Assembly: GCF_022201045.2 (NCBI RefSeq)
Contig: NC_068558.1
Coordinates: forward strand, 43,613,001-43,677,000
Source: Citrus sinensis
Taxonomy: Eukaryota; Streptophyta; Magnoliopsida; Sapindales; Rutaceae
DNA length: 64,000 bases
Direction of reading: 5' to 3'
Shown: positions 37,514-61,639 of the stretch, in pieces
Position numbering within the stretch: position 1 is the stretch's first letter
Layout of the letters: each line of letters starts with the position of its first letter
Notes under the pieces: model-generated
The model's input: only the letters and a program-made list of their open reading frames with translations
What the model was told of the DNA's origin: nothing
The model's database searches: none
Position numbers and translations under genes: made by a program

Positions 37514-38133
37514 GTGGTGCTAAGCCTAACGCAGTCTACAAAAGAGGGTGAGATCATGCGTTGACCAATAATTTGTGGTATGGAATGATAAGCATCGGGC
37601 CCTCCATTGTGCCAGTTTATATCCCCTCTATTGACACGTGCCATACCACACCCGTTTTTTCCAATCTTCTCAATAGGAAAAGCAAAAATGAGAGGACCGC
37701 CTTACTACTTCTTGATGTGTCACTTTTGTCGAGGCAGCTAGGCAATTAAGAAGGCGCCATGGTGGGGCTTACTTATCCTATACGAAAGGATGAACCACGT
37801 TATAAAGTAACAATGATTGTCGATTCCTCCTCCGCACACCCAGCTTGTCTAAATAATTACTAATTAATTAAATAATTACTATATGACTTCTCACGAAAAG
37901 AAATACTATATGGAAAAATTAAATATAATTTACGGCCAGAACCCTCCGTTTTGGTTCAATTACATCAACCAAAAACATAGCAAACAAATGAACTGTGAAA
38001 ATTAAGGGCATGCAAAGGACAACACGGGATTGTGTATCGATTTGTAACTCTGTTGCGGCACCTTCTTAAAGGTAGCCCAAAAAAGAGAAACACAAAGTGG
38101 GAGTCGAACTATAGCGAAAAGAGTTAATGAGAG
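37514..38133 (-). pseudogene. Detached 3' end and flank of an ankyrin gene (probably ANK3)
   Basis: The 3' flank and last codons of an ANK gene, homologous to about 14130-14745 and 18957-19540. The frame reads ...KKVPQQSYKSI and would stop at 38002-38004. It is cut at 38133 by the CACTA element. Bases 38056-38133 are repeated at 49842-49919, on the far side of the Copia insertion, with about 7 differences. This is best read as the part of ANK3 separated from its body by the 11.7-kb nest; a fourth, otherwise deleted gene is the alternative. Confidence 0.7.
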
Positions 38134-39416
38134 CACTACAAGAAAACATGCAATAGATGACGAGAAATAACTGTCATAAAAAAAAAGTGTATGACATACA
38201 ATTTATCCATCATCCGTCATCTACGTCACTGTCATTAATTTATAACAAAATATTTTCTGTCATGAATTTATGATAGCATGTCATAGTCATATATCTGTCA
38301 CATAATATTTTAATGTAAAAAAATAATTAAATTTATTTAAATTTTCACACCTTTTTTTAATTTTTTAGTGAGAAATTCAATTATTATTTAAAAATTTATT
38401 ATTCAATTTTGGCGGGAAATTATTTATGATAGAATATATGATGGCTTTTCTATCATAAAGTTTTGATTTTTTTCTAAAATTATATTATAATTATAATTTA
38501 TTGATGAATTCCTGTTTACAAATTTAATTAATTAATAAAACAAATATCATAAAAAATTAATATCAATTAACATTCATTCAATCCAAAAATTAATTTAAAA
38601 AGAAATACATATGATCTACACCAAGACATAATAAAACATCCCAAATTGAAAAAGTCATCCCAAAGTATAAAATTGCAGTCAAATTCCAATCAAACTCTAA
38701 GAAAAGCAATAAGAAATCCGGCCACCAAGCCAAGTTACCCAACAAAAATTCCAAAGATTAATGCAAGTACTCCAACAATAAGATTTCTAGCAAGACTTCC
38801 TGTAAAAATTCCAGCAACAATATCATCTTCTGATAGCACTCTAAACGAAAATTGAAACTTACAAAGCGACCTGCAAGCTTCCTGTGAACAAAATTGATTC
38901 AAACACCAAGCAGAATAAGGAAAATTACGAGGCTGCAATACATGTGGACATCAAATATAGTAATCTATTTGATTTAAACTGACTTCACTTTTATGGAATG
39001 AGCAAAATATACATACTCAATGGATTAAAATTACTTTTGGTGAATGGGAATTCATCAAAATCAGCAAGCTAGCTAAAAATGCAAAGGAAGCCACAACAAT
39101 AGACTAGTGTGAGGAGACAAAAATAAATCATAAAGTCAGAAAAAACAATGGCATCCAGATCCGGCTGAACTGATCAACCAATGAAACAGAAACCAAACAA
39201 CCAACTTTGACAAGCTTATCTCAACCAACAACACCAATTCTAGGCCTGTAACCTGCCTACCTATTTAAAATAGCATAACAACACTTTTCTGAAAAGTGGA
39301 AACGACTATATATATGTCAGGATTTTTAATAAAATGCATTCTTCATCCACAAAATAAAAATAAAATCTAAGTGGAGAAATTATCACTAGCACATAAAAGT
39401 ACCTGATCTAAAGTAT

Positions 39417-39513
39417 GTTTAGCAAAGTCAGTGGTAGATATCATCACTCCAACTATGAATGAACCCAGATCAAGACTGAGGCCCAGCTTATCACTGCACT
39501 GAAAAGAAACTCC
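39417..39513 (-). pseudogene. Captured exon of a KEA-type K+ antiporter
   Basis: A segment bounded by ag and gt splice signals on the minus strand encodes CSDKLGLSLDLGSF, then VGVMISTTDFAKHTLDQ. These match the KEA4/5/6 subgroup (family consensus recalled). The following family exon (beginning VEPIRN) was not found, so only an isolated exon was captured. Confidence 0.75.
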
Positions 39514-39908
39514 AAAGGTATTACATTGTCCAAGCGGATGATCACTTAACAGCATAAAAGCATATTATCTAGTGCATAAACAGTAAATTAACAAAGCAGA
39601 AAACAGAACCCATTAATCGATTGCCAGCAAGATGATTAACCTTGACAAAACAGACGTATTGCACTTACCCAAGCAGAAATCAAAGAAATGTCAATTCCAT
39701 GGGAAAAAAAAAAACAACTAACATAAGTGAGGTGGGCAAAAAACTGAAAAACACATATATCCCTGCATGTTAGCCATTACTATCCACCAACATTTACATC
39801 CAGTAATATACAAACATTAAATGGAGAATAACAAACAGATGTAGAGGGGAGAAGGCAAAAGGATAAAGAAACATTAAAAAAAAAAAAGGGAGATGATTAA
39901 AAAATTAG

Positions 39909-40533
39909 CCTAAGGTACGCAACTTGTTTGCAACATAGAGCAGATGGCTTATGTTTGTTGGTGGATAATTTTGGAGTAGCTTGAGATTAGAGGTGAAATC
40001 CCCTGCTAGCAAACGCCTCAAATCATCATTGCACAACATACTCGAAGCAGAGTCTCCTACAATATGTCAGAGTTTCGTAAGACTACACATTATTCTCTAG
40101 TTTCAAAATGAGGAAACCCTTATAGTGCTCCACTCATCACCTAGCATGTGCAATCCATGATGCTCCAGTTGTTTACCCATAAGAGAAGGGAAAAAAGAAA
40201 TAATTAGAGTTAAATGGCTGACAGATTTGAATACCCAATAGCAACTTTAACAGGAAAGGAAAGTGTGCTGATGGTTCCACAAACTAAGTTCATGGTTTTT
40301 TCAACAAAGCTCCCAAAGGCAATTACTCTAATAAAAGATCAATTATTACATTTCGCAGTTCCAAGAACATGGCATCCTTCCATAATATCAACAAGATTAA
40401 ACAGGAAAATATTAAGAGAAAAAATATCAGCCCTACCTGGGGGCCGTCAGGGTCACTTAGAAGTGTGTCCCAAATGTGAAGGTTGTCCGCAATGTTGAAT
40501 TCGTGCGTTAAGAGCAGAGTTATCCACCTAAAT
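39909..40533 (-). pseudogene. Captured exons of a TBC (Rab-GAP) domain gene
   Basis: Minus strand. An exon near 40435-40533 encodes RWITLLLTHEFNIADNLHIW followed by DTLLSDPDGPQ and ends at a gtaggg donor. After an intron, an exon from about 40061 starts ETLLRVCCAM and, after a small frame-breaking deletion, continues LLAGDFTSNLKLLQNYPPTN and SHLLYVANKL. These are the C-terminal blocks of plant TBC1D13-like proteins. The intron is retained, so capture was at the DNA level. Confidence 0.82.
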
Positions 40534-41619
40534 GCATAAAATTAGGGGTTGACCTGTCATAAGACAGACCCATGAGGCATTTGAAAAGATCAGTTGACCA
40601 AAAGATAACATTATCACTAAATGACTAACAGCCCCTTCGAAAATCCTAGTTACAGTGAAGAATTAATTAAAAACTAGAACTAATGCAACAAAAAAGGAGA
40701 ATGGAGCTTAAATTTAACATATGAGCGTCATGGAACTGCTTTTTAACAGAATAACATCTCTCACATGAAGCAACAACCAAAAACATTAATCCCCAAAATC
40801 ACTTACCCTACCATCCGTGAAGCAACAACAAACAACAGCCGACAGCCACACCTTCATTGCCTCACACACCCAAACAACAATTACAACCGTCACCAATCAA
40901 CAACCCAGCAGCACGCGATGCAGTAGCGACCCAACAGCATCAGCAGTGCGACGTAGCAGCAGCCACTCCCACGCAACATAGAAGCAGCCACTCGAACCCC
41001 ACGCGACACAGCAGCAACAAACCCAGCATTTTAATACTACTAGCAAAATAGTGCCGACAACAACGGGCAACAATTTTTAAACAACATTGCTGGCATACTT
41101 ACAATATACTTGAATGGTGGCGAAAGGATGGTGTTTTGCTCGATCGATTGAGTGCAAGGTTGATTTCTAAGGTTTGGTCGTGAAAGAGTGATGAGTGTTT
41201 GGGTGTGAGTGTCAGTGATTTTGGGGCTTGGTGGGTCAAGACGATAATGTTTTTCTTTTCTCTTTTTTTCATTTTTGAATTTTTAAAATGCACCCTTTTG
41301 TTTTTTAAATAAAATAATATATTAAACTTTAGGTCAAACATAGTCAAAGTAAATTTTTTATCATAATTTCTTGACTTTTATCATAATTTCTTGACAGAGA
41401 AAACTTTTATCACAATTTTATCATAAATTTGTGATGGAAAATAATATTGTCATAAAATCATCATTAATTCATGATAGATTGAAAATTTTATCACGAATCT
41501 GTCATACTATTATGATATAAGTTGAATCTGTCATAAATTGTCTGTCATCTATTGCCTATTTTCTTGTATTGAAGGTGTTAAGGATATATAGTGATTGTTA
41601 AGTTCGTTAAATTAGTTAC

Positions 41620-43635
41620 TGAAATATAAATGTGCAACCCAAGAGGGGGGTGAATTGGAAATTTAAAAATTATCCTAACAAATCCACACAACAAGCAATT
41701 TAATGTCTTAATAAAAATTGAAAGCAATAAGTTCGTTCAATCAACGCACAATAATTAAAGAGCAAGGGAAGAGAAAGCAAACTCAAGGATTTTTACGTGG
41801 TTCGGCAATCCCCGCCTACGTCCACGCCTTCAAGCGCACCGGGCTTGAGGATTTCACTATCCAAGCCTTTCCAAGGCTTCAACCGATTACAATTGACTTC
41901 GAGGTGTCAATAAACCTTTACAACAACGAGATTATCTCTCAATCTCTTCACTTAAGTGTCTCACACACTCAAACTCTTACAAATGAAATGAAGAAATGAA
42001 AGTTACAATGAAACTCACTCAATGAGTAAATATTCAAAGATGAAGAACAATGAATGATTCAATGTTTTGTGTTTTGCAAGTTGAAGGCTCAAGATATCAC
42101 GTGTGCTTTTTGTTTTTGCTTGTTGGAGAGCTTCAAAATGAGTTGGATTTGAGTTCTTATAGTTTGAGCTCAAAAACTAGCCGTTACTCACATTCCAGGC
42201 GTATCCGGTTTGCCGTTTATAGAATCTAGGCTTGGCAATTTAGCCCGACCCGATTTTTGGCCCGATTGGCCCGACCCTAATTTTTAGGGCTTTGGCCCGA
42301 ATTTTTAAGTTTAGGGTCGGGTTAGGGCCAAGATTTTAAGGCCCGAACAAATTTAGGGTTAGGGTAGGGCTTAATGCCGGCCCGACCCGACCCGACCCTA
42401 TTTAAAAAAAAAAAAAACTAACACAAGTTAACACACACACACAACATCACACATTGTGTGTTTTTAATTTAATTGCATTGTATTTTTATTTGTATAAGAC
42501 ATGAGTTTTTTTTTTTTTATTTTGTGTTGTTGAATTGAATTGTGTATGACTAAAATGGTTGTGAAATTATATTGTGTGTTTTTAATTTAATTGCATTGTA
42601 TTTTTATTTATATAAGACATGAGTTTTTTATTTTTTATTTTTTATGTTGTGTTCTTGAATTGAATTGTTTATGGGTAAAATAGTTGTGAAATTACATTGT
42701 GTGTTTTTTATTTTATTACATTGTGTGTTTTTCATGTTGGATTTTGGAATTGATTTGTGTGTGGGGTTGAAATAGTTGTGGAATTGATTGAAATAGTTGT
42801 GGAAAGTGGATTAGATTGTATTTGAAATGGTTGAGTAATTGCCGAATTGGTTGAAATGGTGGTGGAAAATGAAAATTAAATTGTGGGGTTAATTATTTCG
42901 GTAGGGTCGGGTTGGGCCCGACCCGATGTTGGCCCGATTCGGGCCGGGCTCGGCCCGACCCTAACTAAATAGTGTTTGGGCTTTTTTAGGGTCAGGCTTT
43001 AAATTTTTTTGATCGGGTCGGGCTCGGGCTTGGCCAAGCCCGAGCCCGACCCGACATTTTGCCATCCCTAATAGAATCCGGTAAGCCGGATTTATGTTAC
43101 CGTTAAGGCAAAAATTTGAATTTTGCCTATCCGGCTTGCCGGTTATGGAATCCGGTAAGCCGTTTTCGTTCTGGACGCTTGCTGCCCGTATCTGGATTTT
43201 CGGTTTTCAGAATCCGGATAGCCGCTTGCTACAGTAACCTGCTATAGTGAAAATTTTCCCAAATTTTTAGTTTGACCCCAAAACTTTATAAAACTGTAGT
43301 ATGACCCAAAACGTTATGAAACTTTGTAAATAAGTCCAATTTCAGAATTTCTAAATAATGCTTCATTAATCCCAAACTTTCTGAAATTATGATTTTGCCC
43401 AAACTTTGTGAAATTATAGAATGACCTAAAAACATTTAAATAGTTTCAAATAGGTCCAAATCTGAAATTTAAAACACTATCAAAGATTTTGAAATTACTT
43501 TCATTTTCGTCCAAAATGCTTTAATTCCATAAAATCATTTTCTTATTATAAAAGCACAATTCATAAATCTTTACTTAATAAATACATATGGTTTGTTATC
43601 ATCAAAATCAATATTTATAGCCATATAGGCTAACA
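41620..43635 (+). mobile_element. Solo LTR (family A) inside the Copia 5' LTR
   Basis: Begins TGAAATATAAATG and ends GGCTAACA, flanked by exact gttac (41615-41619, 43636-43640). It is the same family as 33452-34921 in the opposite orientation (shared tttgttatcatcaaaat and cctacgtccacg blocks). It carries the hAT-like element 42227-43070; without it the LTR is about 1.16 kb. Confidence 0.85.
42227..43070. mobile_element. hAT-type non-autonomous element
   Basis: Left end taggcttggcaattt; rc of the right end tagggatggcaaaat. These ends resemble the Ac/Ds type (cagggatggcaaa). The flanks are an exact 8-base duplication atagaatc (42219-42226, 43071-43078). Both subterminal regions are rich in cccgaccc/gggtcggg motifs in opposite orientation; the middle is AT-rich with two repeated blocks (tgtgtttttaatttaattgc). 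No transposase. Confidence 0.9.
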
Positions 43636-43900
43636 GTTACAATCCATAATAGTGACGTGACAATTCGTTCAGCAAAAGTTGTTAGTGATTATTAGTTTGT
43701 TATATCGTTTCTCAGAGAGCTGGAATGCACATGAACTTGATTTATGTATTTAGAAAGTTTTGGATGTTAGTATATAAGCTTGTAATCTCGTTAATTGATC
43801 AATTCAATGAAAGGAATTTTTCTCAGCTAAATTTTCTCTGGTTTTCACTCAAGTTTTCTCAGTAGCCAAACACTCTAAAACAACAAAACAAACTTTGATT

Positions 43901-43912
43901 TGGTATCAAAGC
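43901..43912 (+). other. Primer binding site of the Copia element
   Basis: TGGTATCAAAGC differs by one base from the standard initiator-tRNA-Met complement TGGTATCAGAGC and lies about 10 bases after the 5' LTR, as in most plant Copia elements. Confidence 0.85.
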
Positions 43913-43931
43913 CTTGAATCACAATACATTC

Positions 43932-46900
43932 ATGGCTTCTTCAAGTTTTAGTACAAATCTTTCTTCATCAATTTCAACATTTACATTCACAACACTAATT
44001 AAACTTGACAGATCGAATTACACTATATGGACATCACATATCCTTTCATTTGTTCGAGCAAATGTGCTAAAAGGTTTTCTTGATGGATTACGTGCTTGTC
44101 CAAATCAATTGCTATCTGGTGAATCATCAAGTACTAGTGTTGTTGTCTCAGAAAATCTTGCATATGCTGCTTGGAAAAGGCAGGATTAGATACTTTTGAG
44201 CTGGCTCCTATCATCTATCAAAGTCAAGATCTTGAGTCTTGTGGTAAATTCTAAAACTTCTCATGAACTTTGGATAAATCTAGAAGAATAGTTTGGTTCT
44301 GAAACCACAACTAAGAAAGTGCATTTAAAGATGTTGCCGAATAATCTTAAGAAATGATCTATGTCAATTACAGAATATTTTTATAAGCTTAGATCAGTAA
44401 CTGATGAATTAACAATGGCTGGAAGTCTAGTTAGCTCTCTTGACTTCATTATACATTTAATCTCTAGCCTAGGACAACCCTAATATCCTGTCGTGGTGTA
44501 TGTTGAGGCAAATGTTCTTAAAATAAGCACTAATGAGGCTTACTCTATGTTGTTAACTCATGAAGCTAGGCTTGAAAGTAATCACTCTAATGCAACTAAG
44601 GAAACTAAGTTGAATTTTATAGCTAATATGGCTCAAACTGGTAATAATCAGAAGAAATCAGGGGATAATACTAGTTGGAATGCTAATAATAAGGGAAATT
44701 GGAATGGAAATTTTATGAATAAGAGTGGAAATGGTAACTACAATAGCAAATGAGTTTTTGGATTTGGTAGAGGTGGTTATATGGAACAAAATTTAGGAAG
44801 AGCCTAGTTTGGAAATCAAGGAAGATATGGTAGATTTAATGGAAATGGAAATACTGGATTTTTTGGTGGCTTTGATAGAGGAAGTGGCAGAGGAAACATT
44901 AGTTGCCAAATTTGTTTTAAGCCAAATCACTCTGCTACTAATTACAGAACAAGCTCAATAGGAATTTTGTTCCAAATCCTCTCATGCAGAATCAAGGGCC
45001 GAGAATTGCTTATATGGCCACCTCAGAAAGGATTGTTGATCAGGGTACATAAACAGTGAAGCTACTCATCATTTCACCAACAATATGCATAATCTAGCTG
45101 AAAGTAAACCTTATAATGGTACTTAGTTGTTATTAGTTGGAAATGGTCAAGGTCTCACTATCACACATATTGACTGCACTTATCTCTATACTTCTTTAGG
45201 CACATATTTATCCTTAACCAATAATTTGTGTGTTCTAAAAATAACCAAAACCTCATCAGTATATCTAAACTTCTCTTGGATAATAACATAATCATTGAAT
45301 TTTGTTCCACTATGTGCTTTATCAAGGATAAGAAAGAGGGAACCTTGCTGACAGGGGGGATTGTTGAAGGTGGTATTTACAAGCTACTATCACATAATGA
45401 CTCATTTCTTCACTCTACAAATTGCAATTCAAACTTTTTAAACTAAGTTCCATCTCAGTTTTTCTTGATAATAAAGTTGTAAACTCTCTACATAAGTCTA
45501 ATAACCAAGTGTCTGTTTTGAACAATAAACATGCTTCTAAAGCCTATCTTTGTTCTGTTTCTGAAAATATCTCTATTACTAGTAGTGTATCAGTCTAGTT
45601 GTTGCATAACAGATATTGTCATCCTAATAAACATGCTTTGCAAACAGTATTAAAAAGTCTTCCCAAACACTTTATCTCAAATCAATCGATTAGCTTCTGT
45701 GATGCTTGTTAATATGGCAAAATACATCAATTTCATTTTTCTATCACTAACATCAAAACAAAAGCACCACTTGAACTGTTATATATAGACTTATGGGGAC
45801 CAGCTCCTGAATACTCCATGGATGGTTACAGATACTATATCTCATTTGTGGATGATTTTACAAGATATTCTTGGATTTTTCCTCACATTAAAATCAGAAG
45901 CTTAGAAACCTTTAAGCACTTCAAACTTCTTGTTGAAAAATAAATTTTCTTATCTACCAAAACACTGTAATTAGATATGGAGGGAGAGTTTATAGCCTTT
46001 AAAACATTTTTGCAACAAGAGGGTATATATTTTAAACATACTTGTCTATATATACACCATCAAAATGGTGTTGTTGAAAGAAAACACAGACATATAATTA
46101 AGACAGTCTTAACACTTTTAGCCTAATCTCATTTTGGTGGGAAGCTTTTCGTACAACCTTCTTCTAATCAATAGAATGTCCACACCAGTTTTAAATAATT
46201 TATCTCTATTTCAGAAATTATATAATCAACTACCCGACTATCCGTTCTTTAAAGTTTTTAGTTGCTCATATTTTCCTTTTCTCAAACCTTATAATCATCA
46301 TAAACTTGATTTTCATACTAAAAAATATATCTTCATTGATTATAGTCCACTTCATAAAGGTTACAAGTGCTTAGATCTTTCTGGTAAAGTGTTTGTTACT
46401 AGACATGTTTCAATTAATGAAACTAAGTTTCCCTATAAAGAATTATTTCTTAAACAATCTACTTTAAATGTCTCAAACATTGATATCTCATCTTCATCCG
46501 TACAATTCTCTTTCCTTTAAAATTCTATTCATGCTGACAATAGTAATGCAGAGTCACCATCTACTAACCTTGATCCTGCAATGTCTCCTTCATTAAATTC
46601 TAGTTCAGTATAGACTTTTTCTTCTTTCTCTAACCATTCACCTCCACAACCCAATCATACTGCATCATCCTTATTATTAACTCATCCAATGATCACTAGA
46701 GCCAAGGCTGGTATTTTTAAACCCAAATCTTATCTAGCAGTAACCCAAAACCTTGAACCAACAAATGTCAAATGTGTCAAATAAGATTTCAAGTAGTTTG
46801 AAGCCATGAAGGAGGAATTTAAAGCTTTGCAAAGAAACCAAACCTGGGCATTGGTGCCTCCTAAAAATGCTGCTAAAATTGTTGGAAATAAGTGGGTGTA

Positions 46901-49573
46901 TATGGTAAAATACAATCCTAATGGAAGCATTTCCAAATACAAAGTCAAATTAGTTGCCAAGGGTTATCATCAAACATAAGGGGTAGATTTCTTTGAAACT
47001 TTCAATCCAGCTGTGAAACCTTGTACAATCAGAGCAATATTAAGTCTAGCAGTGATGCATTATTGGCCGATTAGACAACTGGATGTCAATAATTCATTTT
47101 TGAATGGTGTGCTCGAAGAAGATGTATTCATGCGCCAGCCTAAAGGATTAATAGATTTTGCATATCCATTTTATGTTTGCCAATTAAACAAAGCTTTATA
47201 TAGTCCCAAAAAAGCTCCTAGAGCTTGGTATGAGATGTTGAAAGGTTCTTTGATCAATAAGGGATTTCAATCTTCAAAATCCGATACATTCATGTTCATC
47301 CAACACATTGGTCAGGACATCCTACTTATTTTTATAAATGTTGATGACATACTGATCACTGGTTCAAATTCTCAACACATTGAGACTGTTATTTAATATC
47401 TACATTCAAAATTTGCACTCAAAGATCTAAGGGAGTTTAAGTACTTTCTTGGAATTGAAGTGACATATTCTCTTTAGGGACTGCATCTATCTTAGACCAA
47501 ATACATTGGTGATATACTTAGAAAAGCAAATATGCTTGATAGCAAATGATTTAACACTCATATGTCCAGGTGATAAACTTAAAAAGGACAGTGGTACAAC
47601 TTTTGACAATCTTTCATTATACAGAAGCATTGTAGGTTCTCTTCAATATGTGTTGCTTGTTGTGCAAATTTTATTGAACTCGCAAGTGCGCGAATCTATT
47701 GTAGTAGAGATCAATGGTGACGAGTGTCGATCCCATGAGGAGGTGAATTTTAATTGTGTGTAGAATTAATTTTGTAAATGAGTGGTTGGATTTGTAGTGA
47801 AAGTGACTTAAATTATCCTAAAATTAGAATTGAAATGGCGAGAATAAATTGAAGAGAAATATATTGAAATGACGTACTTGGGTATCCGTATCTGTATCAA
47901 CATGCACCATGGGATAAATAATCCTTATTAATGCCAATTAAATCATGAGGAGAGAATCCACACCTCATGAACTACGCTCTAATCAATATGGTGCTAAGGG
48001 CTTATCGTGCCAAATAATAATAATCTTGTACTAGGGAGCCGGTGAAACCAGGGCGGTATCTAGACAAGATTATTATTATTTATCTACGAGAAGTCAAAAC
48101 ATCCACAAAAATTAGAGGGTAAGAGAAAATAAGTTTACCAAATAAAGCCTATGACACATGTTGAGACTTCACCTTCAACCCAAGCTTGAAAAAAAATTAA
48201 CTACTCATAATCGAACTAGGGACAAAATGAGAATTTATTAAAATACATAGAAAATACAAGATGAAGAAGGAATTACAGAAAATGGAGTCCAAAAATGGAT
48301 TATCAAATTAAGGGGGGAGACCCCCTTTTTATAGATACATTGAGTAAATCATGGCCATCGGATTAAAAATAGTTTGGACGCTCAGGATTGCACCACGTCA
48401 TCAGTCAACAGTACGCGGTTTGACCACACGGTTTGAGCCAGCTTTAACAGTAACACGGTTTGGTTGAAAATAATTCTGTGTAATGCATATACCGTACACG
48501 AGATTTTTGGTCCACTGATATGCTGTCTCGTCATCGATCAACAGTACATAAGAATTTTAGTCCAACAAGATCATGACACCTCATCAGTCAATGCCACATC
48601 ATTGGTCAATGCCACGTCATCGATCCGTCTATGTGAACAGTGTCGTGAACAGTAATGTAAACAATATCGTACATGTGAATAGTGCTATTTTTTTCTTTTA
48701 TACTCCTCCTAAGGTTTTCGACCGTCCTGAGTTCAAAAGTAGTGTCCGTTTTGCCGTTTGATCTCTCGTTTATTGTGAAATGACTATGATGTCCTTAAAA
48801 TACATAAAATACTTAATTAAAATAAAACACACATAATTAAATTACAAGAAGTTTAAATACATGAAAGTAAGGGTTGTTAGTAAGACTTGAAATGTAAAAT
48901 GATGATTTTCTCCTTTATAAATATATATTTTCTAACACTCAACATTGCTGACCAAACTTGACATAGCTTATACTATAAACAAACTCAGTTAGTTCTTGGT
49001 TGCTCCAACAGTCTCACATTGGCATGCTTGCAAAAGAGTTCTCAAATATCTACAATCTACTTCACACTTTGGCATTTAATTTTTCAATTCAGGTTTTGTC
49101 TCATTAAAGTATTTTCTGATGCTGATTGGGCAGCTGATCCTCATAATCGAAAGTCAACTGGATGGTATTGTGTATTTTTAGAAAACAATCTTATTTCTTG
49201 GTCATCTTAAAAGCAGACTATTGTTTCACGCTCCTTAGCAGAGTCTGAATATCGAGCTTTAGCTTCGGCAACTTCAGAAATTCTTTGGCTCACTTACTTG
49301 TTTCAAGAACTAAGGATTCATCTTAATCAACCTCTTGTTCTGTACTGTGATTATCAAAGTGCAAAGGGCTTAGCTAGTAATCCAAAGTATCACTCTTGTA
49401 CAGAGCATATTGAGTTAGACCTTTATTTTGTTCGAGAGCACATTGCACAGAAACAACTCACTGTCAATCATATTTCCAGTTTTGAACAATTTGCAGATAT
49501 TCTCACCAAGCCCTTCTCCTTTGATCAATTTGCTTATCTTTGTGACAAGCTTAATGTTCTTCCCAGACCTTAA
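43932..49573 (+). pseudogene. Degenerate Copia gag-pol
   Basis: Reads in order, with many stops and frame breaks. Gag: LIKLDRSNYTIWTSHILSFV at about 43995, then a decayed zinc knuckle CQICFKPNHSATNY whose last Cys is Tyr. A protease remnant (ATHHFTNN) is near 45060. Integrase: YIDLWGPAPE and the VDDFTRYSW region from about 45780. Reverse transcriptase: GNKWVYMVKYNPNG, QLDVNNSFLNGVLEEDVFM and the FINVDDILI catalytic region at about 46880-47360. RNase H: DADWAADP, SLAESEYRALA and CDYQSAKGLASNP at about 49110-49560. Integrase-before-RT order identifies Ty1/copia. A 1287-bp solo LTR splits the end of RT. It cannot encode working proteins. Confidence 0.92.
47658..48944 (+). mobile_element. Solo LTR (family B) inside Copia pol
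   Basis: Begins TGTTGTGCAAATTTTATTG and ends ACTCAACA, with an exact 5-base duplication ttgct (47653-47657, 48945-48949). Removing it and one ttgct restores the Copia frame LQYVLLTKLDIAY across the junction, which confirms the borders. It contains the cgcaagtgcgcgaatct / gtcgatcccatgagg block common to some plant LTRs and is unrelated to family A. Confidence 0.92.
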
Positions 49574-49576
49574 GCT

Positions 49577-49586
49577 TAAGGGGAGA
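49577..49586 (+). other. Polypurine tract of the Copia element
   Basis: aaggggagat directly before the 3' LTR start (tgttaagg, 49587), the usual position of the plus-strand primer. Confidence 0.75.
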
Positions 49587-49843
49587 TGTTAAGGATATAT
49601 GGTGATTGTTAAGTTCGTTAAATTAGTTACAATCCATAATAGTGACGTGGCAGTCCAGTCAACAAAGTTGTTAGTGATTGTTTGTTTGTTATATCGTTTC
49701 TCAGAGAGCTGAAATACACGTGAACTTGATGTATTTAGAAAGTTCTGGATGTTAGTATATAAGCTTGTAATCTCGTTCATTAATCAATTCAATGAAAGGA
49801 TTTTTTCTCAGCTAAATTTACACTCAAGTTTTCTTTTTTGCGG
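49587..49843 (+). mobile_element. 3' LTR of the Copia element, end truncated
   Basis: Matches the 5' LTR from tgttaaggatatatgg to actcaagttttc, but lacks the last about 45 bases (cagtagccaaacactc...) and an inner dozen. It joins ANK3 coding DNA directly at about 49843 with no ca end and no 5-base target repeat. The minus-strand reading of this LTR supplies the ANK3 stop codon. Confidence 0.82.
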
Positions 49844-52800
49844 CACCTTCTTAAAGGTAGCCCAAAAAAGATAAACACAATGCGGGAATCGAGCTATAGC
49901 GAAGAGAGTTAATGGCAGGCCCGTCCCCGCGTATAGTGGGAATGCTGCGTATTTTAAATTATCTCTAACCACAAGAAAGTGTCCAGCGCAGAAAGATATC
50001 AGCATTGAAGCTATGGACACGAACAGTGAAGTGAAGCCAAGCAAGAGTTTTCCAGGCAAATCATTACGGAAATCTCGTTCCTGGAACTGAGACGTTGTTA
50101 TTGTGAAGAATACGACCAAAGCTGTAATAGAGAAGGATAGAGCTACGAGAGATGAGATAGCGAATACGTTGAATGCCAGCTGGTCTTTGAGGTTCGGATC
50201 TCCGGTTTCGCCATTGACTCCACCAGGCACGTTGGATGAGGAAGTGAAAGCAACCGTGGCAATGAGTGCAGCCATGACCGTGCATGCCTCGGACGTCTTG
50301 ATTAGCCATTGGTCGCCTTCTTGGACAAGGCTTATGTGTGTTTCGGTGAATAAATCTTCTGCAGACTTGTCTTGCTTGTTGTAAGGAACAAAGAAGTGGA
50401 GTGGCATTGATTCCTTAACAAACTGCATGCATTTTGCAAAGCACATATATACATATATACGGTTTATATAAATAATAAATTAGATATGCCATTAGCTTTG
50501 GTCTATATATATGTGTGTGTGTGTGTGTGCCCGCGCTAACGATGTATACATATAATACTGAATATGATACAGTAACATACCTCGTACCACCTGAGTTCCC
50601 ATTGCATTTGTAAAGCGGCCCCCGGTGTCAGCCATGGCTTATGGTCTCCTAAAGTTGCAGCGAGGTGCAATGCACTGTTTCCTTGGTCATCCACTTTACG
50701 AAACACACTGTCTTTCATGATTGTTGTCTTGAGTAAGAGCTGATACACATGGGGTTGCCTATTCTCCACAGCCAACAGCACTATATTCTTCTTCTCCGAG
50801 TTCATGTCATGGATTGCCACTGGAAATGATTCTAGAATTTTCTCCACTATTTCGGTAATTCCATTCTTTGCCGCGATTAAAATTGGGGTCTCCCTCTTTG
50901 CCATGTCAGGGATAGTACTCCCTGTTTTACCTACACAAAACAATATAATATATAATACAAGCGGCATTTTAATCAACACGTACCCCCCGATTCCCCGCCC
51001 CATAAACATTTAATAGTGTCAGAGGCCATAAGCATCATTAATTTAATCACATCCTTCATTTCTGTCTTCTGAATTTTTTCCATTGTTTTGGCTCAGTTTG
51101 TGTGTGTCAGTATTGTGATCAGTTAGGGAGGTATCTGGCTGCTGATCACCTTCCAAGACGGCATCAGTGTCGCCACCATCAACAATTGGGTAAGGACTTG
51201 TCTCGTCTTCTTCTGCTTGTGATGATGGCCGGCGTAGGGGTTTTCCTCCATCGTCGTCATACTCATACAGAGAAGCGCGCCGTAGAAGTTCATCCAGAAT
51301 CTGAACAGACCATGTGTGTTTCTGTTTCTTCTCTCGGATCTTTCTTATCTTGGTTGATCCTAATTATTCAAGTAAATTTGTTAACTTATGATATGGTTAG
51401 AACCGGAACAACAAGGTAAAAAATATTATCGTTATTGTTATATTGCCCTACCCAAAGCAAGAATAACTAGCATTGCCTTGGGGACTAGCATGACTAGCTT
51501 GACAAACTCAAAGCAGGTTCCATAATTGGGAGGAAAAAATTGGTGACCTTGAGCTCCAAAATTATGCCTTGATTCTTCTCCTGAATATAATATGAAAATT
51601 GCAACTATGTAAGTATATAGCATTACATACCATTTCAGTAAGGCAACTTTCAAATCTTGGGAATCTAAAATTTTAATAAACATTACGAAGCGTTTCATAA
51701 TTCCTATGCTCAAGATTAAACATTCTGTCTGGAACTGGTGTGACAAGCTCACATCTGCCAGATGGGTGGTTTGACATCTTAAAGTAGCTCAAATAGGAAC
51801 CACTCACCTTGATCTCCACTGTCGTCGATACCTTTTGACCTTTCAGGGTCCTCTGCATCTGTTGGCGTCTGTTCTTTCTTTGTATTTCCTCTGTTAGACA
51901 CTGGAAATGGCAACTCCGTTACCGTACATGGAATGTACAATGAATGGAAGAAATATTTTCACTTTTTTTCTTTTTTGGATCACTTGTATATGCCGACGTA
52001 GTTAATCATCAAATGAAAATTTTGACTCACAAACTATGAACATCGTTTTCAGCAGTCTAATGAAGTTGAGGCATGTTTCGTAGTTCTCTGGGTAGTTCGT
52101 TTGCTTTTTACTTGTTTCCAACTGATACTGGTCATAAGATGTCTCCTCCTGAAGCTTATCAACGGATATACCTTCCAATTCAATTATCCATTGAACGAAG
52201 GAATAAAGAATAATTAGCAACTGTGACATTAAGCACTAGTAAAGGAAGAAGAAAATGGGGGGCCAGTAATACTTACAATGATATATGATACCGGTGCAAA
52301 GCCCGAGGTGGCTACCGCTTCTGAAGGCATTGGGCTTTGTGGCGAGGAGGTGGAGTGGGGACACTCCTTGCTCGTTCACAGAGTTAACAAGTTTTTCACA
52401 TCGATGAATTATTTGAAATGCCAAATCTATCAGAAAATACAACGCCATATTAGTGAAAGCCTGCAATTGAATTATATGATTCTCTCGTGATCTGAACTGA
52501 ACCTACCGAAGTAGTCCCCAGAGATAGCACAGTGAAGAACAGTATCGCCCTCGTTTCTTCTAGAGTAAGTATAGCCATCGTCTACAGAGGCACAGAGATA
52601 ATGCAGGCAAAGGAAGGCATCCTTATGGCCATGAAGAGCAGCCAAGAAGAAAGGGGTTTCGTTTTCGTGGTTACGCTCGCCAATCAATCTTGGATCGGCA
52701 GTAGCAATGCATTTGCACATGCTCACATTCCCCAGCCCGGCTGCGATGTGCAAAGGCGTGCTGCCTCGCTCGTCTCCAATTTTTAAGACTTTGAGCTGCT

Positions 52801-53014
52801 GCTTTTCTTGAATTATCCCCACAAGATCTTCCACTACCCCTTCTTGCCCATCGGAGACAGCAATGTGCAACGCTGTCCCGCCTGATCGTGTGATCCTGGC
52901 CTCGTGAATTCTGTCATCTTTCCCGTAATTTTCAACGACTTCGTTCCACTTACCTTTCATGGCACTCTTGAACAAACCCTTTTTAAGTTGATCAATGTCA
53001 ATCCCAGTCGCCAT
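49808..53014 (-). CDS. Ankyrin-repeat protein with PGG domain (ANK3), LTR-derived C-terminus
   Basis: Third paralogue, eight exons: 52507-53014, 52277-52426, 52031-52171, 51808-51900, 51452-51580, 51051-51359, 50581-50930, 49808-50422. All phases join (2295 bp, 764 residues) and the ankyrin repeats, linker and PGG domain are intact. Differences: three extra codons in exon 5 ([11 protein letters not shown]), two codons fewer in exon 6, and Cys instead of Gly at the exon 6/7 junction. After KKVPQ the frame enters the Copia 3' LTR and adds KRKLECKFS before a stop, replacing the normal RSYKSI-type tail. The native 3' flank is now 11.7 kb away, so the polyadenylation signal must be new. The sequence is a mosaic: exon 1 and exon 8 resemble ANK2, while exon 7 and its surroundings resemble ANK1. 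Protein probably still functional, expression unknown. Confidence 0.88.
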
Positions 53015-54032
53015 TGTTAAAGCCTCTTCCTCTTCAACTGGAAATTTAACTAGCTGTGAGCTACAGGTTTTAACTTAATTGGAGCTGTCAATACTCAGTA
53101 TTGGCTAAGAGGCTTAGCTGTATTAATAATTTTATTCTCCAAAAAAGAGTCGCTCTGCTACTGGCAAACATGTAAAATTAAGAAGAATTTAAAGATATGG
53201 ATATGAAGATAAAGGTAAAATATGTTGTGTTCCATTTGTAGCCTCCCGTTAAACGTGTTTGATTCTTCTGGGACAAATAAGAGAGATGGAGAGGAGATAA
53301 CATTATATTGTTCTGTCTTTTGGAACAAGCCATGTTAGCACAATTAAATTTTATCTCAAATTTAAATAAAAAAGTTAATTATGTCAGCTAATATGCATGA
53401 GTTTATGTAAATATATTCATCTCTTATGTCGTCATTTGCACACAAACTGAGACTAACAACTTTTAAAATTGGAGCGAAGGGGCAGCACAAATTTAATATA
53501 ATGAGTCAAATTTTATAAGCCATGGCAATACGTGAAGCATATTGTATTGTTTCAACTTTCAATATTTTTCTACAATTGCGATAATCGACTGATACCAAGA
53601 CCAAAAATTGGAACCTGTAAAGCATAGAATGTTCGGCCCCACGAAAAAGAGAAAAGTAAAATAAACCTCTTTTAATAAAGAAAACGCTAACTATGTTTGC
53701 TTCAACTATGCGATTGGCCGTTTGTCCAAACTCCTCTCTTTATAATAGAGGAAATTAGTAAGTTCGAGTTCTCATGTGAGACTTATCTTACTGTGTAAAT
53801 CTTTTCTAAAAGTAATCTAATGATTTAGTTGATTAATCTATATATTTTTTATGAACTTATCGGTGTATATTTTCCCATATATTTAATATGAATGAAATAT
53901 GTATTCTTGATAAAATAAAATAAAAAATTGTAGAATAATGAAGGAAGAATGAACGATTCGATAAAAAATTATGTCTTGAGTCAAAATTCAAAAGGACTGC
54001 TAGATGTGACAATTCGCTTACATTAATATTTT

Positions 54033-54157
54033 GAGAGCTGCTATCTTATGTTTAACATAAGATACAACCCTCTCTATCAGCGGTGGGCCCTAGTGGGACT
54101 CACGAATCAGTTGTGTGAGAAATTATACCTTACGTTAAATATAAGGTAGAAAAATCC
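54033..54157. mobile_element. MITE with palindromic ends, duplicated copy 1
   Basis: Counterpart of 23709-23833, with taatatttt on both sides (54024-54032 and from 54158). Confidence 0.72.
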
Positions 54158-54338
54158 TAATATTTTTAGCACAATTAAATTTTATCTCAAATTTAAATAA
54201 AAAGTTAGTTATGTCAGCTAATATGCACGAGTTTATATAAATATATTCATCTCTTATGTCGTCATTTGCACACAAACTGAGACAAACTTTTAAAATTGGA
54301 GCGAAGGGGCAGCACAAATTGATATAATGAGTCAAATT

Positions 54339-54683
54339 TTATAAGCCATGCAATACATTAAGCATAATAGCATACTGTATTGTTTCAGCTTTCAATGTTT
54401 TTCTCAAATTACGATAATCGGCTGATACCAAATCAGACGAAATATTGGAACTTGTAAAGCATAGAATGATCGACCCCAACAAAAGAGAAAAGTAAAGTGA
54501 TAATGCAACTGATTGGCTGAGCTTTGTAATATGGGCCCAATTAACTTGGGCCACAAGCATGTTCATGATGAATAACGTGACTCTCGCGTTCAATCTTCCT
54601 CCAGGTTCTTTTGCACTAAAAATTGGGAGTTTATCTTTTCCAATGGATCCATTTACTTTAACCTCTTTTAATAAAGAAAACTC
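54339..54683 (-). pseudogene. Unrecognised membrane ORF, unit 3 copy
   Basis: Counterpart of 24015-24359 with the same pair of compensating single-base shifts. The upstream part has no ATG start. Two hydrophobic segments, no recognised family. Confidence 0.35.
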
Positions 54684-55055
54684 TAACTGTGTTTGCTTCG
54701 ACTATAAGTCATATTTTTATTTCCAGAGAAGGGATTGGCCGTTTGTCAAAACTCCTCTCTTTATAACAGAGGAAATTAACAAGTTTGAGTTCTCATGTGA
54801 GACTTATCTTACTGTGTAAATCTTTTCTAAAAGTATTCTACATGATTTTATTGATTAATCTATATATTTTTTATGAACTTATCGGTGTTTTTTTTTTCTA
54901 CATATTTAATATGAATGAAATATGTGTTGTTTATAAAATAAAAATAAAAATTGTAGAATAGTGAAGGAAGAATGAACGATTTGACAAAAAATTATACCAT
55001 GAGTCAAAACTCAAAAGGACTGCTGAATGTGACAATTCACTTACATTAATATTTT

Positions 55056-55178
55056 GGAGCTGTACCTTACGTTTAACATAAGGTACAGTCCTCTCCACCA
55101 ACTGTGGGCTCTAGTGGGACTCACAGATCAGTTGTGTGAGAGACTCTATCTTACGTTAAACGTAAGATAGCAAAATCC
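55056..55178. mobile_element. MITE with palindromic ends, duplicated copy 2
   Basis: Counterpart of 24728-24850, flanked by taatatttt (55047-55055, 55179-55187). Confidence 0.72.
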
Positions 55179-58144
55179 TAATATTTTTGGCACATGTGGT
55201 GTTTCGGAAGATATGTGAATACTTGAGAAAAGAAAATGTAGATAAAAAGTAAGAAATAATTTTTTATGTTGGTGAAAGTAACTTCAGCTTGTTACTTGTC
55301 AATTTTTTTTTCTTAACATCATTCATCTGTTTAGCAAATTCCTGTTATATTTGATCCTGTCAGCCCATTTCTCTTCAAAGCTCAAGTAAATATTTAAAGC
55401 AGACGCTTATATTCCTTACTACGTGCTAATTTGATGGTTTTATCCTTCGTCATTAATATTCAGGTGACTGGTTTTATCTGAGAGGTCCAGCTACTTTGCC
55501 GATCCAACGGTTCTCATCTAAAATGGGTTTAGTTTATGCGGGTTTTAAGTGTATTGGAATAATAGATTTATATGGTGTAATACAAAGTGATTTTGCTACC
55601 AAACATGAGACAGCATAAATTTAATACCATGCAAAATTTTAATACTATGTAAGCCAAACATGCCCCGAAATGTATTAGCCATGAACAAAATCAAGAAGAT
55701 CCATGAAACCAATTCAGAAATCTGGAAGAAGTAAGGTCCGGTCACAAGAACATAAGTCAAAAGAACAGAAAGTAAGGGAACAAATAAGGAGGCACATGAA
55801 GTTTTGCTTGTGTGATTGTATATTTGTGTTCAAGGTTACAACTGGAAAGTTATGGACAACTGGGGCTACAGACTTACGGAGTTATGGTTGCACTTTATAT
55901 CTTCGAGTCATTAATGGAAAGGCTTTTATGATCATTTTGGCTTCATCTTCACTACATTCTTTTTAGAATAAACTTTTATGAAAACTTGCAGCCTTCAAGA
56001 TTGCAAGAAACTAGGAGCTTTTGGGACAAAAACATTTTCCCAAACCTGTATCTTCATCTTCTTCATGATATGATTGTCAGCAGCAAATAAACTGAGAAAC
56101 ATATATTACAGCTCAGGAAAACAGCGATTGGAACATAATAGAATGAATAGATCTCAATCCCTTCATCACAGCAAGATCAATTCAAGCCTTGGGTTACGTA
56201 CGTAGTCTATGGCTTAACAATTGTAATTTATATATTCACGTGATTCTTGATTTATTCTTTCCTTAATTGATGTACAAAGACATGTATAAATATTTCTTCA
56301 CTGTGAAATGAATAGCATGTAACTTTCTTACAAACATTCGCATCTGTTAATTTCTTCTTAGAACAATCATTTGATTTCTTATAGTCATAAATGTTGTTCT
56401 CTTGTGGCATTGCCTCATAAAATAGATCAAAGTGTAAAATCAAATTTTCATTATCAATGACTGTAGCCTTTTAAGCTATGCTGGCGTAGCCGTCATTTAA
56501 ACTCAATGAGGGCAAATTTAATTTTCCTCAATGATTTTGGTGATGAAAATATCATTTCGAACCTATGTTTTAATATTTATTATTCAAAGCCAGCAGGGAT
56601 AAAAATGACTCTCTATTAATTGGAAAGTAAAATTTTTAGTTAAAATTGCAAAATAATTTCCTATTAAAGTCCGCGGGGGCAACTGCCCTGCTAGTAGATA
56701 ACTAAATATGTTCATCCACAACAGCCATGCACTGATGCACATATCTATTAATTGAGAAAAAAAGCAAAGGGTTTTTTTTTCAACCAACAGTTATTTAGGC
56801 AATATATTACCTAATCATTTGCAAATATTTAGGAGATTATTTTGGAATGCTTGCAAGAAGTTGTTTGCATATCCATCACTTGCATAGTAAGGGTTTTTGT
56901 GCTTGTCAGATTACTCCCAATTGTATTTGCGTTTCTTTTCTTCGGCAGCCGTCACATAAAATCCAAGGGTGACTCTTGGTAAAGGACTAACAAGAACCCT
57001 TTGGCGAAGTAGCCATCTTATTCAGCCAATTTGTCACGTCACTCCACTCGAGCTGTATTATTTATCGGGTTGTTCTTAGACTAGACAAGACAACCTATGA
57101 ATTTTTTGTCTTTATCGGAAAAAATTAGAAAAAAATAAAAACCTACGGAATTTTGTCCAAGGGGAATTATTGATTTCACGTTCAAGGAATCAAGATGCAT
57201 TTGAAAAGCATTTTAAACAACATGATATAACTCCATACGCAAGTAAGTGCATGATTGTACGTAAGCAAAGAAGGTTACCCTACGTTTCATCAGTAACGGA
57301 CATGAACCAAAATGATGGCCCTCAGTGACTGCAATAATAATTGACCTCTGTGACTGCAAGAATGATTGTATTTTGAAGACTGATTCAAAAATCTATTACT
57401 GCTTTCAAAAATATTTCTACTTCCCGTCTTCAACCACACCGAAGCTGGGCTACCAAAATTGATCGTCATCTTCAATTTGTACTGTTTTTTTTTTAATTTT
57501 TTTTTTATAATTTATCAACCTCTAAATTGCACACTAACCAGATTTATTTCTAGATACTAGAAAGACAATATATCTTTCATAATTTTTTTTTTCAGAATTA
57601 CATTACAATAACCGACTAATAATTATGATCGTAAAGTCTATGAATTTTTCTAATTCAATTCTACGATGACATAGTCCATTATCTAAACTCAAAGCGAATC
57701 TGATTTATCTTCAAGTATATAAAAGAAAATGAACCTGTACGATCAAGCACACAACTTGGATCTACTTAAGGATTTCAATCCTATCAACCAAGAATGAAAA
57801 TATAAGTTGTCTATCACTCGACCACCAAGTGATTTGTGTTTCGATTGCAGGATTAAATATACTTTCGTATTATCGGAACTCAAATTTAATTTGATACGGA
57901 TCAAAGCTATACTAACAAAATGACCAGATCTTTTCGGAGGGAGAATAACTTTAAATCTCATAACTGCGACTAATTTATTAGTAATGTAACAAAGAGGATT
58001 CCGTTACAAACAGAGAACAACATCACCTGCATATATATAACTAGTGATTCTAGTATAAATGAAATTGGCTGTTTTATTCTTAAAATTAGGAAAAAAAAAA
58101 AAGGAGCAAAAAAATTAAAGTACATTTAATTAATTTTAAGATCG

Positions 58145-59244
58145 TTAAACTTTTACATGAGTTGTCGTAAGCATGCTTGATGCATCAATGTACTCAACAG
58201 AATCAAGCTTTATAGGAGCAAAAGAAGGGTCTTTCAGGATTTGCCTAAAATCCTCAGCATCACCATAAAAAAAATCCTTCAGAAACGCCACCACAATCCC
58301 ACTCACACATCTTCTCATTGGATCCCTCGATTCGTTTCCATTTTTGCAAAAGTATTTCGAAAGCGCCCAAGACTTTACGTCTGATGGATTATCATCCAAA
58401 ATGTCCATGTGACCATAATCTGTAGCAACAAAATGAGCACGAGAAGAGTTCTTGCATCTGTTGAAAAACTCTTCATGGTTTGCTCCTTCAGGTGCACAAG
58501 CGGTGATGCACCTAGCCACGCCGCCGAGTCCGGTGCCAATCACAGTAACGGGAATCGAGAAGTCGAAAGAGTCGAAAGAAAGAATCGAGGGATCAAGTCC
58601 AGTGGTTTTACTAGTCCCAGCAACGGGGTCTAGCCCTATTACTGCACCGAATCCATAGCGTAGTGATAGAGCAAAAGCCGTTTGTCCTCCGCGACTGTGC
58701 CCCATAACAGCAACCAAGCTTACGTTCGCTTCAGTATTTTCTGGGAGATTTTGCTGCAGGCCTTGGGGTAGCCACTCCGCGACTTCTGCTGCGCTGTTAA
58801 GTTCATTGGTTGCACTTGGTGGCGGGATACTGGTGTATAGCTACAAATGCCACGCACACACATCGTTTAAAATTAAGTTATAGTTTTGTACATGTAAATA
58901 AAATTAATGTTGAAATATGGATTATATATTGATATATTGAGCATACATACCTGAGGAGCAACAACGATGAATCCATGGGACGCTATGTGGTCAAAGATCT
59001 TCGAATAGCTTTTGTTGCTGAGAGAAGTGCCATGAAGGAACAAGATGACATTAAAAGTTCCTTTTCCGGCTGGCGTGACGATAATCAATGGCTTTGGAGG
59101 AGGTGGTGAGGATGGAGATGATGTCTCCAGCGTGATGCGTTTTGTGGAATAAATTCCTCTTGTAAATACCGGAAGTGTGGCCGTAGCCAAAAGGGGAGTG
59201 CCTTGCACTGAAGCTGCAGGCTTGGCGTCCACCATTGCTGCCAT
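58145..59244 (-). CDS. CHLASE1: Chlorophyllase, copy b
   Basis: Exons 58951-59244 and 58145-58840 encode the same 329 residues as the gene at 27816-28915, with Ser147 in GHSRGG and the same splice sites. The open frames show no amino acid difference. It lies in the second copy of the large duplication, 30329 bases to the right. The TATA-like element (59324-59334) and the proximal promoter are also copied, so dosage rather than divergence is the expected consequence if both are real. Assembly duplication of one locus is the main alternative. Confidence 0.96.
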
Positions 59245-61639
59245 TATCGTGATTTTATTTTCCGCGCGAGAACGTACTGTTGAGAGACAATTGAAAGAGA
59301 TGAACAGCAAAGGCGGATTTCAGATTTATATATAATGTTAAGACTGAACGTCAAACTTTAACGTCTATAGGATTGGAGAAACACGACAATATTTTACTAG
59401 TCGTGAGAAAGAAAATTCAATGTATGCATGTGTCTAAATGGAAACCAAATCCATTTTGTTTCCTCGCCTCTCCTATCCTTCCAAATTTTAATAATCCATG
59501 TGTCACTAACGAAATTGAATACCAAAAACTGACCTCCAAACTCACCTCTAAAGCAAGTTTTTTTTTTTTAATTTTATCTAAAGGATGAACAAATTTGAAG
59601 TTCCCTGAAATATAAATGGATCTAAATACAAAATACTTGACTGATATGTTTGTGAGTTTTTTTTTTTAATGCTGAATGTAAGTGACATCTTATTTTTTTT
59701 ATAAATAAAAAAGTTTTAAACATAACTATTTGACATTTATATCCTTATGAGTCAAAATACTTAAAGGAATTAGGTTTTATATATACTTCTTATTTAAATA
59801 TTTTTTCATTTAGATAAAAGTCACAAAAACTATTCAAGGTGTAAATGTCTAAAAATCATATATAAGTTAAAAAAATGTAACTTTAAAAAAAGATATGAAA
59901 TTAATAAAATTTCAGAATTCAAAGTTTAGCAAACAAAGCCTGAGTGTTCAACTATTATCAATTTTTTTCTTGATAATTCTTTTCCTCTCAACTCTTTCTA
60001 TTTTGACATCAATCTCTAGCCAATTGTTAAAAAAAATAAAATTAGAAAGTACAATTGAAAAAAGACAATTTTTTTAAGCAAATTATGATTTAGATTTTGC
60101 TTTAGTTTTTTTAAGAAATTTCAATCAAATTATGTATGTTATCTTAATCTTTTATCAGATTTGGTTACTTTAACAATTAATAGTAATTTAATTTTTTTCA
60201 TTTGTTCATTTGTTCTTGATGTTTGTCTTCTTTATTTATCTTTTATATTGTTCTAGGCTTATTATTATGCCTTTAGAATGCTTGAGTGACTTGGATTCTT
60301 TAGATGCCGAACTTTTTGGTACTCGGAAATATGATACCCCGAATAACAATTTGTAATTAAACAAAAGAAAAAGTTCAAATTTTATCAGAAGGAAGATATA
60401 GCAACATAAAATGTAGTAACTTCAAAAGTTATGCTTAACACTAATTCTAAGTACATAAAAACTATAGGCAAACTACTTCAACCTCACAATTATCCAACAC
60501 CACTGAAACAAATTTATTAGAAATTACAACTCCATTCACACAAAAAAAAAAAAAAAAAAAAAACTGTTCCCTGTGACAGCCACGATCTGCAAGCTCCACC
60601 AATTCTTTAGCCTCCTCAATTATTCATTCTATAGTCAACCTATCTACAAGCAGTTGCAAGAATCACAGGGCACAAAACTAATTACTAAAACTCTTTTTGC
60701 AGAGATTCATCTTTCTCGCAAACAATCACAATAAATAATTATAGCTTCTAACGTCAGACCCAACATTTTTATTCACTATTCTCTTCCAAATCTTCTTAAC
60801 GTCCACCGCCATTTCCATCCAGCCATGTCGTCAAACATATCGAGGGCAATCTCCAACACACCAACTTCTCCAACATGGCTTTCTACTACTTACGGTGTTC
60901 GAGAATCTCTTCGATCTATCTGCACCATTTAGTATTGGCGAGGGTGTAAATGCTGGTATCAGAGATTGATTAATTGGAAGGAGAAGACCGATCAAAATTA
61001 TAATTTTGATTAGGTAGAAAAAAAATTACAATATTTAGGTTTACATTTGGGAAAGTTTTTGAGTTAAGAAAAAAAATTGTTTGAAATATAAGATTCAATC
61101 TCATCCTTTAGATTTGAGAAAGCTTAGGAGAAGCGAGAAAACAAAATGCCTAAGAGGGGATTCAATTCCATCTAAATGACATGCATGCTTATTTTCTTTT
61201 ATTGATGGTTATAAAGTTCTTAAAGCTAAAAATATTACAAGTATATCCTTTAAACTTGTATTTGAATACCTTGTACTTACAAGCTTGAAATACTTTTTAA
61301 GTTAAATAATTTGACAATATAGTATTTCCAAGTTAGATAATTTGATTACAACCAAAAAATAAAATTAGAGTTTGTTGAATTATATAAAAATAAATAATTT
61401 TCATTTGTTTTAAATTTAATCAGCTTTGAAAATTATTTAAAATAATGTTGTTCTCTAAATTCTATAATTTTGTCGAAATATATAAAATGACCAAATTACC
61501 CTTAATAATTTATTTACAGCAAACAATGGGTAACAAATTAAATTTATGATTCACTTTTCCCATGAAAGAGGGAAAATTAAAAATTTACATGATTCACAGT
61601 TTGGAGGCTTTGGTTTTGGTGTAATCAAAATCTGCATAA
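59245..61639. other. Intergenic region right of chlorophyllase b
   Basis: Up to 60625 it is the duplicated upstream DNA of the chlorophyllase. Beyond that the sequence is unique and AT-rich, and I see no gene or repeat I can name. Confidence 0.5.

Follow-up and report, generated by a model that had tools for sequence, protein, structure and literature searches.

Alternative last exons derived from Copia retrotransposons are already known in plants, and the sweet orange gene described here, ANK3, adds another such case. In the defence gene RPP7 an intronic Copia element reportedly offers an early poly(A) site; it is reported to shorten the transcript from within an intron, whereas the one at ANK3 forms the end of the gene. 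Arabidopsis has transposon-associated alternative last exons (TE-ALE) and termination sites (TE-ATTS); among the TE-ALE, LTR/Copia elements are over-represented, and GER5 carries in its 3′ UTR an ONSEN Copia in antisense orientation, with alternative ends (PMC10241880). In those cases, as at ANK3, a Copia element in a gene or at its end gives splice sites and transcript ends; in contrast to the TE-ALE described there, the ANK3 element replaces the coding sequence of a conserved C-terminus and provides both read-through and splice-in ends, and ANK3 is known from annotation rather than from long reads. Another parallel is given by new Arabidopsis ONSEN insertions in RAV2 and SOC1. These are exonised, the SOC1 insertion in antisense orientation, and the transcripts end in the RT-RH region or the LTR; LTR-encoded residues occur at the C-terminus of the predicted RAV2 proteins (PMC12112155). 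Those insertions share with ANK3 the exonisation of antisense Copia sequence and predicted LTR-encoded C-terminal residues, but they are fresh and yield short transcripts with disrupted frames, whereas the ANK3 Copia is old (LTR K2P 0.072) and the frame is complete up to KKVPQ. What ANK3 adds to the known cases is thus an old element copy from which a gene with an otherwise complete frame takes its coding ends.

The encoded protein resembles ACD6 and wheat Lr14a, which are ANK-TM proteins with ankyrin repeats followed by membrane helices, an Lr14a mutant having a premature stop in the membrane part (PMC7878491); the likeness is one of architecture. Among the titles and abstract openings listed in literature searches on citrus transposon-gene chimeras and on ACD6-type genes we found no report on ANK3, and no paper joining ankyrin, the PGG domain and citrus.

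The window, by which we mean the whole 64-kb stretch of DNA analysed, has three ankyrin-PGG genes, all of them on its minus strand. Their positions, and the exons of ANK3, are as follows.

14675-17868, minus strand: ANK1 with its exons; last-exon host homology from 14675
19491-22690, minus strand: ANK2 with its exons; last-exon host homology from 19491
49838-53014, minus strand: ANK3 with its exons; last-exon host homology from 49838
50423-53014, minus strand: ANK3 exons 1-7 (53014-52507, 52426-52277, 52171-52031, 51900-51808, 51580-51452, 51359-51051, 50930-50581) and introns; open reading frame, GT-AG introns
49808-50422, minus strand: ANK3 exon 8 in its read-through form, encoding the PGG/membrane domain and then the LTR-encoded KRKLECKFS and stop, as in protein P0002
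49808-49837, minus strand: LTR-encoded tail, nine codons plus stop (TGA)
49835-49838: junction, a short T run between the truncated 3′ LTR and the host exon

All eight ANK3 exons are open and the splice sites of the GT-AG introns are intact, and the product scores well above the Pfam cut-offs for both Ank_2 (94 bits against 27.3) and PGG (91.5 bits against 24.1), so that the gene is an ankyrin-PGG member and otherwise intact, as had been supposed from the first reading of the sequence. Up to the family's KKVPQ nothing is missing from the frame; the host part of exon 8 reaches down to 49838, beyond which the same frame continues through a Copia 3′ LTR read in antisense. This junction is sharp, homology to both tandem paralogues beginning at 49838 and LTR homology ending at 49834, and the original prediction that the last exon runs from KKVPQ into a truncated antisense LTR, at 50422-49808, proves exact in its coordinates. 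Because short open runs often occur by chance, the nine open LTR codons carry no evidential weight alone; the annotated sweet orange protein P0002, with a C-terminus of exactly KRKLECKFS, nonetheless matches the predicted tail and stop, and in this form the host gene does take its final residues from the LTR. A predicted structure of P0002 has helices at 506-539, 558-586, 598-626 and 636-666, where ten-residue pLDDT means go down to 38-56 over most of the stretch. In the best 60 of 261 rows of a search of solved structures none was found for the PGG part, the best stretches covering the N-terminal ankyrin part.

The element at the end of ANK3 lies in the opposite direction to the gene and has the following parts.

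41576-49834, plus strand: Copia retrotransposon, with two nested insertions
41576-43900, plus strand: 5′ LTR, start intact, interrupted by an insertion at 41620-43634
43901: start of the primer-binding site, next to the 5′ LTR
46797-47393, plus strand: reverse transcriptase of Copia type (Pfam RVT_2), split into two open pieces, one of them matching at E 5.2e-32
47658-48944, plus strand: solo-LTR-like insertion in the Copia body, starting TGTTG and ending CAACA, with TTGCT at both sides
49587-49834, plus strand: 3′ LTR without its last 41 bases

The paired LTRs, the primer site beside the 5′ LTR and the Copia-type reverse transcriptase identify it as a Ty1/Copia element. The insertion at 47658-48944 is missing from the four related copies compared, and the 2-kb insertion at 41620-43634 is partly 75-79% similar to the opposite strand of 33856-34896. 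The end of the LTR was defined from seven related LTR pairs, six of which place it at the primer site (one alignment overruns by one base) and have a perfect 5-base target duplication; the seventh, L018/L017, does not. By this yardstick the 3′ LTR in the window lacks 41 bases at its outer end. A matching 5-base target duplication is absent here, the flanks being GAAGG on the left and TTTTTGCGG after the LTR. Since the LTR is truncated and the flanks are unmatched, 49838 is no ordinary integration site. The two LTRs differ at 17 of 248 aligned bases, plus gaps.

The far side of the Copia carries a piece of a similar last exon, separated from it by a DNA transposon.

37516-38052, minus strand: native-type tail and 3′ flank of an ANK copy, stop at 38002-38004
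38053-38133, minus strand: ANK last-exon fragment repeating ANK3 49838-49918
38134-41571, plus strand: DNA transposon of CACTA type that separates the tail fragment from the Copia

The segment at 38002-38133 encodes KKVPQQSYKSIHNPVLSFACP with its own stop, and the suggestion that it holds the original tail therefore stands insofar as the tail is of native type; it is not the cut-off end of ANK3, in that 38053-38129 repeats 49838-49914 (71 of 77 bases the same, six differences). With the CACTA set aside, the repeat can be traced to the first Copia base with about two mismatches, for a total of ~82 bases, and because both sides carry these same bases the fragment is not simply a displaced tail. 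The CACTA element is recognised by terminal inverted repeats with one mismatch, and among its other matches (40 of 169 candidates scored) 27 of 39 start exactly at 38134 and the remainder within 9 bases.

Comparison of the 77 bases among the copies gives some clues to the relationships of the fragment. It differs at 11 from each of ANK1 and ANK2, and at four sites it agrees with ANK3 and not with ANK1/ANK2; at three of them the chromosome-9 paralogue agrees with ANK1/ANK2, so that the fragment and ANK3 share a derived change there, the fourth site being undecided. Sites 51 and 67, where the fragment has the chromosome-9 state and ANK1, ANK2 and ANK3 agree on another, speak against this grouping, although repeated changes there are likely, the paralogue being only 68% alike. 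This paralogue (C9:18020289-18020883, L005), used as the outgroup, is the sole match to the ANK last exon outside the array in one genome search.

The array itself has a complex history. The segments 22690-30295 and 53014-60622 (7.6 kb) are 99.66% identical, without a substitution over 56030-60541 (4.5 kb), and both end abruptly, at 30295 and 60622; such near-identity points to duplication or gene conversion in the very recent past, or else to an assembly duplication. Because its edges are not at 49838 it leaves the junction untouched, but it may affect the copy number of the locus. Within 32420-37513, the segments 32420-33453, 34922-36204 and 37378-37513 match parts of 26956-29395 at 88-93% and are older copies of them, which suggests repeated tandem units of the array; they stop just before the ANK 3′ flank at 37516. 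The idea that ANK2 and ANK3 stem from a simple 30-kb tandem duplication was rejected, as near-identity covers only 7.6 kb and windows of 250 columns show differences of about 2-11% in the gene bodies; P0006 was likewise rejected as a fused ANK2/ANK3 gene, since only three residues distinguish it from P0005 of ANK2. Exon identities among the copies are 84-99%, and ANK3 and ANK1, for example, are 99% identical in exon 7 and 84% in exon 8; as identity switches between neighbouring exons, gene conversion among the ANK copies seems evident.

A protein search with the ANK3 last exon as query, against proteins clustered at 90% identity, yielded four ANK3 forms among the matches listed (120 of 530): P0002, P0008, P0009 and P0010. 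P0009 and P0010 represent clusters of two and six sequences, and it is the representatives that were inspected. All four map exactly to the locus with GT-AG introns, and the three other than P0002 use these sites.

49968-49970, minus strand: splice donor in the PGG exon (exon end 49970, GT 49969-49968)
49422-49427, minus strand: AATAAA hexamer, past the read-through stop and ahead of acceptor A, as a candidate signal for poly(A) addition (such hexamers arise by chance)
49323-49373, minus strand: alternative last exon A, antisense to the part of the Copia body that follows the reverse transcriptase, encoding a segment that ends in SPLHFDNHSTEQEVD; used by P0009 and P0010
49104-49157, minus strand: alternative last exon B, in the antisense Copia body, encoding a segment that ends in TFDYEDQLPNQHQKIL; used by P0008

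In these forms the donor after 49970 is joined to acceptors before 49373 or 49157, bypassing the junction and the entire LTR, and the C-termini, LSPLHFDNHSTEQEVD in P0009 and P0010 and LTFDYEDQLPNQHQKIL in P0008, are encoded on the minus strand within the Copia. By their exact maps P0008-P0010 finish in antisense Copia exons, and so, as annotated, would have TE-associated alternative last exons. The claim that the LTR is where the gene ends is thereby undercut, three of the four annotated ANK3 proteins seen splicing around it into the Copia body. The donor GT is also present in ANK2 and is absent from ANK1. The spliced forms drop the last 44 gene-encoded residues, their shared gene-encoded part ending at residue 627 of P0002; the modelled last helix (636-666, of low confidence) lies beyond this point, and the spliced proteins would be without the last membrane helix.

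A further search, with the central part of the protein as query, found a Citrus unshiu protein with a native-type RSYQSIPP tail, and no further ANK3 form among the matches listed (120 of 358); with clustering at 90% identity, a native-tailed ANK3 orthologue of another citrus could be hidden in a cluster. The Valencia annotation was made with BRAKER and Mikado on 80 RNA-seq sets (PMC9832951). Because this pipeline, which we think applies here, used RNA-seq assemblies, the annotated ANK3 forms are likely, if not certain, to be real RNAs, although an annotated isoform may stem from a gene predictor; it is likewise probable that ANK3 messages end inside the Copia.

The acceptors can be followed in relatives of the element. 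Thirteen related Copia loci were examined, eight with well-aligned sequence; the five that were not counted are four without coverage of the acceptor sites and L015, which has no AG at acceptor A in a weak 58% alignment. An AG stands at acceptor A in 8 of the 8 alignable relatives; at acceptor B it is missing from L014 alone (7 of 8). With AGs present in related copies, the acceptor sites belong to the element family and did not arise after the insertion. The acceptor region lies downstream of the reverse transcriptase, presumably where RNase H is to be expected; one open piece tested there, 49211-49570, gave no Pfam match.

What ANK3 has lost is well conserved elsewhere. In an alignment of 32 listed proteins chosen by hand, 25 of the 27 non-Citrus rows have the PQRSY tail, and ANK3 does not. 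ANK3 also departs at conserved positions after the donor, at 6 of 31, 9 of 36 and 10 of 38 of them (thresholds of 90, 80 and 70%), an excess over the rest of the protein that depends on the threshold (p 0.126, 0.012 and 0.020, respectively) and that ANK1 and ANK2 do not show at the two thresholds tested for them, 80% and 70%. Conserved C644 is lost, and the last-helix segment falls below the hydropathy cutoff in ANK3 and above it in ANK2. There are nine ANK3-specific changes after the donor, all non-synonymous, as are all three ANK2-specific changes there; in sum, specific non-synonymous and synonymous changes number 51:11 in ANK2 and 46:9 in ANK3. Between ANK2 and ANK3, dN exceeds dS (0.061 and 0.043 by NG86; 0.064 and 0.035 by YN00). 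These patterns hint that the segment skipped by splicing is under weaker constraint, suggestively at most, as the overall excess of dN and gene conversion weigh against it.

Because the fragment and ANK3 both hold the same ~82 bases, the junction seems to have arisen by rearrangement with duplication, and because there is no matching target duplication the insertion history of the Copia is reconstructed rather than read off. The element most likely landed first ~82 bases further into the exon than the present junction, that is, upstream in the direction of the gene, in the last exon of a copy of this gene. Later the 3′ LTR would have lost its end, and end joining would have linked what remained of it to an unbroken copy (allelic, sister or tandem). 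This would have duplicated the ~82 bases and left the ANK3 frame complete up to KKVPQ, with the CACTA element inserting at the other edge. Alternatively the duplicate may have been made by an odd integration, one Copia end being joined by integrase and the other resected by 41 bases and end-joined to give a long target duplication; this concerns origin alone, is compatible with the present-day part of the favoured account, and seems to us possible but on the unlikely side. The intact start of the 5′ LTR is consistent with it, as is the similar divergence of the duplicate (6 of 77) and the LTRs (17 of 248), as from one event, although this similarity does not decide between rearrangement and integration. 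A literature search on long target duplications listed one paper, on a rotifer. Integrations of this kind, with a resected, end-joined element end and a long target duplication, are to our knowledge rare, and the tandem array gives an easier route via deletion or unequal exchange. Moreover, the left flank of the fragment diverges from that of ANK2 by 0.099 (52 of 526), above all seven ANK3 introns (0.017-0.079), which leans towards two different copies, a comparison that gene conversion blurs.

Directly established are the junction, the shortened LTR, the absence of the family tail from ANK3, the existence of four annotated proteins with exact GT-AG maps, and the acceptor AGs in the relatives. 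We think it probable, with reservations, that these are best explained by a last exon that runs into a backward Copia with a 3′ LTR 41 bases short, by the rearrangement proposed above (insertion ~82 bases upstream, LTR-end loss and end joining), so that the PQRSY tail is gone and messages likely end in the Copia either by read-through to KRKLECKFS or by splicing to acceptors in its antisense body. Transcripts would then be cleaved within the Copia, and splicing would skip any early poly(A) site near 49427. A rather less favoured view is that ANK3 is a dying gene copy, its Copia-ended isoforms being transcriptional noise or products of gene prediction and yielding no consequential protein. The excess of dN over dS, the nine uniformly non-synonymous changes after the donor, the loss of C644 and of a nearly invariant tail, and the last-helix segment under a cutoff that ANK2 passes are all in keeping with this; against it are the eight open exons with intact splice sites, the use of one donor with two acceptors, which is likelier to come from transcript assembly than from a predictor, and the finding that ANK2, whose end is unbroken, has the same excess of non-synonymous changes. 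We regard it as unlikely. That the locus is an assembly artefact is very improbable: false duplication could give the 99.66% likeness of 53014-60622 to 22690-30295, but the suspicious edges, at 30295/60622 and near 53039, are away from 49838, there is no N anywhere in the window, and protein models span the junction, though built on the same assembly. Least credible of all is that a plain insertion displaced the old tail and that LTR read-through is the end of the gene; P0002 is annotated and a native-type tail does lie at the far side, but of the four ANK3 proteins seen, three bypass the LTR by splicing, and the ~82 bases stand on both sides, and a plain insertion at 49838 is ruled out by an LTR 41 bases short and by the missing flanking target duplication.

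A more speculative and rather doubtful extension of the favoured account is that ANK3 has become a two-way gene through the Copia. Read-through would yield a membrane protein of four helices whose basic tail is LTR-coded, whereas the spliced product would be short of the last helix, a part already losing conserved residues; as the acceptors are carried by the Copia family, its elements would act as portable last exons for any gene hit backwards. At this locus it is an old copy of a retrotransposon, rather than a fresh insertion, that gives coding ends to a gene from a family with known defence members, and it offers exact testable sites, with two competing ends of one gene and acceptors that relatives of the element already have. 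Should the RNAs be confirmed, ANK3 would show the persistence of a gene after loss of a C-terminal motif common to nearly all of its aligned relatives.
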